NCBI RefSeq assembly: GCF_022201045.2 | Contig: NC_068562.1 | Location: 3,534,001 to 3,598,000 of the forward strand | DNA from: Citrus sinensis | Taxonomy: Eukaryota; Streptophyta; Magnoliopsida; Sapindales; Rutaceae | Direction of reading: 5' to 3' | Length of the DNA: 64,000 bases | Shown here: piece after piece, positions 4,965 through 55,131 of the stretch | How the letters are laid out: every line of letters begins with the position of its first letter | Position numbering within the stretch: position 1 is the first letter of the stretch | The notes under the pieces: model-generated | What the model was told of the DNA's origin: nothing | Databases searched by the model: none | Seen by the model: only the letters and a program-made list of their open reading frames with translations | Translations under genes and position numbers: made by a program

Positions 4965-5236
4965 GGGTGCGTTTGGGATTGAGGTGCTGTAGCTTTTAAA
5001 CTACAGCTGTTGTGAAAAAAAACTGTAATTATGAAACAAAAGTTAATAATATATAGTAAATATAAATTTTAAATAATAATTTTGATAAAATTATTAAAGA
5101 TATAATAAATTTTATATTATACAAGTGAAAAATCATATCAACATAACTTAAAAGCTACAACAGTTAGTGTTTACCAAACACTTTAGTGCTGTAGCTTTTA
5201 AACTACAGCTGCTCAACCTCAATCTCAAACGCACCC
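4965..5236 (+). mobile_element. MITE family A, copy 3 (best preserved)
   Basis: 272 bp with near-perfect terminal inverted repeats: GGGTGCGTTTGGGATTGAGG at the left, and its complement with one change at the right (CCTCAATCTCAAACGCACCC). A second inverted block with TAGCTTTTAAACTACAGCTG lies just inside both ends. The interior is AT-rich and non-coding. AAA flanks both ends and may be a 3-bp target duplication. The GGG...TTTGG type of end resembles PIF/Harbinger MITEs, but superfamily assignment is inference. Confidence 0.85.
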
Positions 5237-5291
5237 AAAGGAACACAAATCAAATTATTTCTCCTCGTTATAAGATTAAGAGGAAATGTAA

Positions 5292-5622
5292 GCCACTTCG
5301 GCCTTGGCCGAAGTGGTGGGCTGCTGCCCTCACAAGCATTGTGAGGGCAGCGGTTCTAGCCCCCACAAAAGCATTGTGGGGGCTAAATGTTCTTTATATC
5401 CTTCTCCCTTGCGAAATGCAAGTGGAGTATGGACATCCTCTCCTGTGAGGGGTTATTTGTATTGGACATGTACTTCATAGAATTCATTGTAATAATGTAA
5501 GTCTCAATCATGTATATCCGATTGTAAATATCAGTGTAATACCTCTGCTACAATAAGCAGTTGTTGTAAATATCTGTGTAATGCAGTAATCTGATGATTA
5601 ATCAGTCTCAAAAAAAAAAAAA
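5292..5622 (+). mobile_element. Poly(A)-tailed retroposon with three strong hairpins
   Basis: A 331-bp insert is bounded by a 14-bp direct repeat AAGAGGAAATGTAA (5278-5291 and 5623-5636) and ends in a poly(A) run (from 5610), the signature of LINE-driven retroposition. Its first 95 bp fold into three consecutive, nearly perfect hairpins: 5293-5316 (11-bp stem, TT loop), 5323-5351 (13-bp stem, GCA loop) and 5357-5385 (12-bp stem, AAGCA loop). The second and third share the apical CACAA..GCATTGTG. GGTTCTAGCCC at 5352-5362 resembles a Pol III B box, and a weak A-box-like sequence lies about 38 bp upstream. The 3' part has two copies of TTGTAAATATC.GTGTAAT. It does not look like a standard tRNA-headed plant SINE. 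The source RNA is unknown to me. Confidence 0.8.
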
Positions 5623-5636
5623 AAGAGGAAATGTAA

Positions 5637-16202: not shown

Positions 16203-16381
16203 ATGCCTCTCTCGGCCTTATGGCTTAAGATCAAGTGTAATATTTGTTCTTATCAGTATGATTTCCCACATAATATTAAATTGATTTTTGTAGGAAGGGC
16301 CGGCCATTGTAGCTTGCTTATTGGGTCTGACGAGCGTTGCCCGCGCGCTGCACTACTGCAAGGGCCCGGTGCACCCCGGCC
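16203..16381 (+). ncRNA. U2 snRNA-like gene, probably a pseudogene or divergent variant
   Basis: The 5' end ATGCCTCTCTCGGCCTTA, then AAGATCAAGTGTAATATTTG, TTCTTATCAGT, ATATTAAATTGATTTTTG, TAGCTTGCT, CACTACTGCAAGGGCC and GGTGCACCCCGGCC follow U2 snRNA from end to end. The Sm-binding site ATTTTTG is intact (16284-16290). Two features are abnormal. The branch-point-recognition GTAGTA reads GTAATA (16237-16242). About 25 nt of stem-loop II are missing, so the length is about 179 rather than about 196 nt. A plant snRNA promoter (USE, TATA) precedes it, and a weak 3'-box-like CAAATGTCAAA follows at 16385-16395. A retroposed pseudogene would lack the promoter, so this looks like a DNA-level duplicate that has begun to decay. 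Whether it is expressed is unknown. Confidence 0.85.
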
Positions 16382-54701: not shown

Positions 54702-55131
54702 AGAGTTGGTGGAAGGGAAAGGAGTCATGTAATTTACGGCTTTTCAATAACAGAAAGGGGGTCTGTTTGTTGAATTGAAGAAGACCGTTAAAAGCGCAGC
54801 AGTCCTTTTTAGAAAATTTGTTTGCAAATAAGAATAAAGAAATGCCAATGGCAGAGGTGAACCTCTCACAGTTAAGAAAGGTCGTGAGGGTAGGGATTTA
54901 AATTTTTATAAATTTAAAATTTTTTTAATTAAATATTATGTATGATTATTTTAATATAATAATATAAGTTGTAATTATATATATCGTAATAATAATTATA
55001 AATATTTATATAATATAATAATTTAATGTGTAATTAATATTGAAAAAATAAATAAATTCAAGGCAGGCGTGACCATATAAAATTTAATTTGTACGATTGC
55101 AGAATAGCACTATGAATTCAATGAATTTACA
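54702..55131. other. Promoter-side intergenic of NAPRT
   Basis: Upstream NAPRT sequence followed by a strongly AT-rich block (54898-55060). No gene seen. Confidence 0.5.

Follow-up and report, generated by a model that had tools for sequence, protein, structure and literature searches.

A Citrus sinensis SINE family with a three-hairpin head and recurrently inverted hairpin loops

The SB1 SINE of rapeseed, a tRNA-derived element, offers the closest described counterpart to the element reported here, since probing of its RNA showed three stem-loops and no cloverleaf, as recounted in a passage of PMC2408557 citing Sun et al. 2007. From a different field, template switching in replication has been described as creating and repairing RNA hairpins in rRNA and microRNA genes (Monttinen and Loytynoja 2022, PMC8794818), and excerpts of that study regard loop inversion as the most telling mark of template switching, though one met very seldom in the RNA genes examined. 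Poly(A)-tailed, tRNA-derived plant SINEs are treated in the AnnoSINE paper (PMC8825457), which contains no occurrence of the word Citrus, and our own literature search turned up nothing that could be recognised as a description of a Citrus SINE family.

The insert and its family

The window (i.e., the whole 64,000-nucleotide stretch of Citrus sinensis DNA that was analysed) carries a 331-bp insert (5292-5622, with poly(A) from 5610), which is a full-length copy of a large LINE-copied plant SINE family, hereafter family C. Its features are as follows, hairpins being those of the predicted RNA fold.

5278..5291, plus strand: 5' copy of the target-site duplication (TSD; AAGAGGAAATGTAA); TT precedes this copy and AA opens it, as in most copies, and the same 14 bp stand at 5623-5636
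5292..5622, plus strand: full-length SINE copy of family C; genomic places are 94-100% identical to 5278-5636, with the common 5' end at 5292
5292..5317, plus strand: hairpin 1 (GCCACTTCGGCC TT GGCCGAAGTGGT); the altered box A region forms its 3' arm, and the loop is AA in flipped copies
5305..5316, plus strand: putative box A remnant TGGCCGAAGTGG, with one A more than TGGCCCAGTGG of family B; alone no better than chance
5318..5356, plus strand: hairpin 2, 18 bp including G-U pairs, with a 3-nt loop GCA; it runs from just past box A to box B
5352..5362, plus strand: box B-like GGTTCTAGCCC, 10/11 to GGTTCRANNCC; the sister families have GGTTCGAGTCC and GGTTCGAGTCT
5357..5385, plus strand: hairpin 3, 12 bp around an AAGCA loop; the hairpin-2 core recurs in it
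5386..5609, plus strand: 3' body common to sister families A and B, containing two occurrences of TTGTAAATATCWGTGTAAT (5522-5540 and 5564-5582)
5610..5622, plus strand: poly(A) tail; up to two further A overlap the TSD
5623..5636, plus strand: 3' copy of the TSD, matching the 5' copy

The first-pass annotation had reported the 14-bp target duplication, the 331-bp poly(A)-tailed insert and three strong hairpins with stems of 11, 13 and 12 bp, and all of these were borne out. Indeed, 5278-5291 is identical to 5623-5636, and the predicted RNA fold of 5278-5636 reached -131.5 kcal/mol (z -8.25), which none of 100 dinucleotide shuffles equalled. Two details changed: hairpin 1, described as a 24-nt palindrome, is an inverted repeat with 11-bp arms within 5293-5316, but its 2-nt TT loop keeps it from being a perfect palindrome, and hairpin 2 has the perfect 13-bp arms (5323-5335 and 5339-5351, 100% complementary) but extends to 18 bp when G-U pairs are included. 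The 12-bp arms of hairpin 3 (5357-5368 and 5374-5385) are likewise 100% complementary, and hairpins 2 and 3 have a direct repeat of 22 nt (86%) in common.

Two other features of the window deserve mention. Just upstream of the SINE, 4965-5236 has inverted ends (GGGTGCGTTTGGGATTGAGG... and ...CCTCAATCTCAAACGCACCC) with AAA on both flanks, and has the look of a MITE, a non-autonomous DNA transposon. Rfam, run on the whole window, gave no match on the SINE element at gathering score; its one match lies at 16203-16379 and is to the U2 spliceosomal RNA (81.1 bits over the full model), marking a U2-like gene.

The whole-genome search covered 11 contigs (299.7 Mb, including nine large sequences of 24.8-52.3 Mb). 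With the element as query, at least 40 scored places with 94-100% identity and 715 first-look candidates were found, while the motif TTGTAAATATCNGTGTAATNC, of which there are two per element, had 1386 genomic matches at no more than 3 mismatches vs 210 for the reversed pattern; we estimate that the family comprises several hundred elements. Of 179 loci fetched, 162 were kept and directly viewed. TSDs were counted in the 118 copies whose hairpin 1 could be parsed, leaving out the 44 rows in which it could not and 17 loci situated in a larger element, and 101 of these 118 displayed an exact TSD of at least 9 bp (range 9-19 bp) within 2 bp of the common 5' end. The first TSD base was A in 89 of the 101 and the second in 85, with AA at the start of 78; T or C preceded the TSD in 85, and the A fraction ahead of the second TSD was 0.92 over the 101 copies. 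Insertion sites of family C are of the form T/C^AA, and such sites with such TSDs are what an L1-type endonuclease characteristically leaves. Dispersed copies starting at one 5' position, TSDs with an A-rich tail and an L1-type endonuclease site were all found, and the earlier suggestion of a SINE-like family copied by a LINE stands, since the genome search recovered many copies with a common 5' end, T/C^AA sites and different target duplications of their own. The SINE RNA would be made by RNA polymerase III from internal boxes and then copied by an L1-type LINE through target-primed reverse transcription.

Note that hits restricted to the tail were considered as a second family and rejected, their flanks being near-identical on both sides, which indicates that a single older SINE copy was amplified as part of a larger element. 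This group consists of 17 loci kept out of all counts (L072, L074, L075, L092, L093, L095, L097, L100, L103, L105-L107, L121, L122, L124, L127 and L128) and of L070, which has no parsable hairpin and hence entered no count. L094 has only its 3' part in common with this group in the larger element.

Sister families and the descent of the head

Copies matching only the 3' body of the window element revealed two sister families, A and B. Their copies are much older than those of family C, and their consensus heads were built from 30 heads (TGCCAATGGGCCTTTGGCCCAGCGGTGAACC...) and 16 heads (GCCACTTGGGCTTTGGCCCAGTGGTGAACC...), respectively. Both consensus sequences contain a box A, TGGCCCAGYGG, that agrees with TRGYNNARYGG at 11/11 positions (reached by 16 and 11 of 2000 shuffles) and, at matching places, a box B, GGTTCGAGTCY (GGTTCGAGTCC or GGTTCGAGTCT), scoring 11/11 or 10/11; the 11/11 of family A was reached by none of 2000 shuffles. 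The own box A of family C scores 9/10, a chance level reached by 1108 of 2000 shuffles, and its box B 10/11 (46 of 2000). Aligned to the sister heads (GCCACTTCGGCCTTGGCCGAAGTGGT vs GCCACTTGGGCTTTGGCCCAGTGGT), the family C box A displays an extra A opposite the T that is bulged in family B, and one G-C pair turned into C-G. ARAGORN detected no tRNA in 21 loci of families A, B and C, and Rfam, with E values up to 5 allowed, matched none of 16 family B loci to a tRNA. Since neither recovers a recognisable tRNA sequence or cloverleaf, the promoter boxes are the one line of evidence for tRNA ancestry, and they suggest that the family C head probably descends from an older SINE with tRNA-type promoter boxes. 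The first-pass view that the insert does not look tRNA-headed is accurate for the window copy itself, in which box A is spoiled and no tRNA is recognised, but not for its relatives A and B, whose consensus carries both boxes. An old, broken family A copy is also present in the window at 54844-55022 (73-77% identity to L180 and L191).

The consensus heads of A, B and C are all predicted to fold into three consecutive hairpins at matching places, namely one about box A, one running on from there to box B and one beyond box B, so that three 5' stem-loops would replace the cloverleaf in the manner of SB1. A total of 33 pairs could be placed in each family. Standard pairing is retained throughout at 30 of them, and six of these 30 (H1.8, H2.6, H2.9, H3.1, H3.4 and H3.6) changed on both sides between families. 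Pooled pairing amounted to 94.7%, compared with a mean of 89.9% and a maximum of 90.5% in 300 re-dealings of the partners, a control that is driven by between-family differences and ignores relatedness. Within families, in contrast, pairing was no better than with re-dealt partners in 8 of 9 tests, the sole signal coming from hairpin 3 of family C (2 of 300 re-dealings), and single family C copies displayed 4 double compensatory changes vs about 1.2 expected. Compensatory stem changes, named in the first-pass annotation as part of the proof of a family, are found between the sister families (six pairs) but not within a family, a pattern to be expected where inserted copies are free to decay and the fold is kept only by the active source lines. 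From the between-family covariation, we infer that the three hairpins may be the working fold of the head, and that they would have replaced the tRNA cloverleaf long before family C. The stems of family C have been perfected, the hairpin-1 T bulge seen in B being closed by the extra A of box A, hairpin 2 having lost loop length and hairpin 3 having grown. That a three-hairpin head would have persisted beyond the tRNA fold, even as its own sequence altered, bears on what SINE RNA needs for copying.

Among individual copies, L068 (167-537) and L048 (540-938) have an extra hairpin unit, and part of the 3' body is repeated in L086, which hints at a tendency of the head and tail repeats to expand.

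Other readings of the element have to be weighed against a SINE with a functionally kept fold. The insert could be an ordinary processed pseudogene or the retrocopy of a structured Pol II non-coding RNA, as poly(A) and a TSD are present and box A of family C is poor, but one and the same 5' end at hundreds of candidate places, the Pol III boxes of the sister families and the lack of any Rfam family on the element at gathering score make this highly improbable. A single-copy processed pseudogene with an mRNA parent, in particular, is excluded or unneeded given the multi-copy family and the boxed sister families. The three hairpins might also be a mere by-product of mutation, because template switching builds perfect inverted repeats, and the perfect stems, the flipped loops described below, the absence of within-family covariation, the added hairpin unit in L068 and L048 and the intra-hairpin deletions in L032, L033, L059 and L098 would all agree with such an origin. 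However, the same layout recurs with other stem sequences in the much older families A and B, and a comparable three-stem-loop SINE RNA was probed experimentally for SB1, according to the passage of PMC2408557 cited above. We consider the by-product origin doubtful, while granting it a real chance, and retain the fold kept by active source lines as the preferred reading.

Inverted loops: recurrence and timing

In all three hairpins of family C, the loop is also found exactly reverse-complemented. For hairpins 1 and 2, the genome-wide census required intact stems and an asymmetric flank, hairpin 2 being counted by hand. Hairpin 1 had 74 intact-stem places, with the loops TT (65), AA (7, the exact flip), AC (1) and TA (1), while the 93 places of hairpin 2 had GCA (59), TGC (17, the exact flip), GGC (8), GTA (3), ACA (2) and, once each, GCC, GCT, CCA and TAC. 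Independent point changes would be expected to yield at most 0.003 flips in hairpin 1 and at most 0.002 in hairpin 2. One-base loop changes compared with flips numbered 1 vs 7 in hairpin 1 and 8 vs 17 in hairpin 2, and since single-base changes are no commoner than multi-base flips, independent substitutions cannot explain the latter. In hairpin 3, TGCTT stood for AAGCA in 2 of 133 parsed copies (L058 and L162); further loops (TACTT, TATTT, AACTT, TACTA and ATACTT) are the reverse complements of loops of other copies, and AGCTT was also seen. The genome census of hairpin 3 was kept out of the counts, as its stem also matches in reverse and 100 of 109 places were among the matches listed. The hairpin-2 loops GGC and GCC, which are mutual reverse complements, were also kept out of the flip counts because the direction of change is open; they are possibly a second flipping pair. 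An older sub-lineage (L101, L104, L109, L136, L152-L158 and others) has GGC or GCC as its hairpin-2 loop.

On a tree made from the SINE body of 140 copies, in which 106 of 136 inner branches have less than 80% support, the 11 AA copies among 113 correspond to 11 changes in hairpin 1, and the 16 TGC copies among 85 to 15 changes in hairpin 2. As this tree is poorly resolved, flip counts above the conservative minimum are soft; that minimum, obtained by collapsing all branches below 95% so as to favour common descent as far as possible, still amounts to 2 events for hairpin 1 and 3 each for hairpins 2 and 3, which shows that flips recur independently. With dozens of flips, three hairpins and unflipped copies as internal controls, the rate, the timing and the dependence on stem and loop become measurable.

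Regarding timing, the 104 tree copies from L001-L139 form a sample not chosen for flips, of which 18 are flipped (hairpin 1 in 8/87, hairpin 2 in 9/73 and hairpin 3 in 1/95). By thirds of rising end-branch length, the flipped share was 6/34, 5/35 and 7/35, and a constant flip chance beat an age-proportional one (logL -47.9 vs -54.7). Because the flipped share does not grow with copy age, we infer that flips arise at or just before insertion. The flip-enriched set of all 140 copies, which includes about 28 fetched with flips in mind, is evidence the other way, flipped copies standing there on longer end branches (p 0.03 for hairpin 1 and 0.007 for hairpin 3), and we take this as an effect of locus choice.

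Two other histories of the flips are conceivable. The flipped loops might have been inherited from a few flipped source elements instead of being made anew, in favour of which it can be said that most inner tree branches are weak and that the hairpin-2 GGC loop resembles one older sub-lineage. We find this quite unlikely, as flips occur in several supported clades and next to unflipped closest relatives, at least 2, 3 and 3 events persist after the collapsing described above and, on the present, weakly supported tree, diagnostic body substitutions are not common to the flipped copies. Flips might instead follow insertion, through template switching or cruciform recombination in ordinary DNA replication unrelated to reverse transcription. 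Replication-linked template switching with loop inversion is indeed known for RNA genes, as excerpts of PMC8794818 report, and the position of flipped copies on longer terminal branches (hairpins 1 and 3) in the flip-enriched sample points the same way. Against this, the flipped share stays flat with end-branch length in the 104 unselected copies, the age model is worse by 6.8 log units, and L021 and L036 are flipped at an end branch of 0. L001-L064 were chosen by likeness to an unflipped copy, which biases against flips in young copies. An origin after insertion is rather unlikely in our judgement, and flipping at or just before insertion remains the preferred reading.

Proposed template switching and comparison with known systems

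Altogether, we have good confidence in the overall explanation that family C is a LINE-mobilised SINE whose three-hairpin head came from a tRNA-box SINE lineage and whose loops were turned by template switching. Since the stems are perfect inverted repeats, the machinery that copies them would occasionally change template within a hairpin and then come back. The growing strand would make one arm and jump across to the opposite arm on the complementary template; loop and second arm would then be copied from the switched template before the strand returns, leaving the loop reversed. Reverse transcription, second-strand synthesis at insertion and DNA replication could all provide usable templates. 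By the same switching, one arm may have been rewritten in such a way that the hairpin-1 bulge was filled and the stems perfected, along the lines that Monttinen and Loytynoja put forward for replication (PMC8794818). This further step is weak because the double compensatory changes are few (4 vs about 1.2 expected). The extra hairpin units and the hairpin deletions listed above fit the switching picture.

More tentatively, it is possible that the LINE reverse transcriptase, on the first or the second strand, flips a loop in about 1/6 of new insertions, and that the same fold-back switching rewrites one arm from the other, a proposal that may well turn out otherwise. If true, perfect RNA hairpins would be both built and kept up by the very enzyme that does the copying, and the family would amount to a natural record in which each dispersed copy is one experiment.

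Compared with the poly(A)-tailed, tRNA-derived SINEs of plants, as characterised in part of the AnnoSINE paper (PMC8825457), our element is alike in length, tail, TSD and, in its sister families, internal promoter boxes. With SB1/S1 of Brassicaceae, as far as the passage of PMC2408557 describes them, it has in common tRNA-type boxes (here in the sister families), a three-stem-loop head and plant LINE-type retroposition, a likeness of layout as described for SB1. SB1 stems, on the same account, have bulges and mismatches and bind HYL1, whereas the family C stems pair perfectly or almost perfectly. The template switches of Monttinen and Loytynoja, as excerpted from PMC8794818, resemble our observations in their perfect stems, bulge-filling insertion and complete in-place loop inversion; they differ in that they were deduced for replicating rRNA and microRNA genes and that inversions are called very rare there, whereas in family C 18/104 unselected copies are flipped and the timing points to retroposition. 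The three-hairpin layout of a tRNA-derived SINE RNA is a known kind, and it is the recurrent loop inversion that is the surprise for a specialist.
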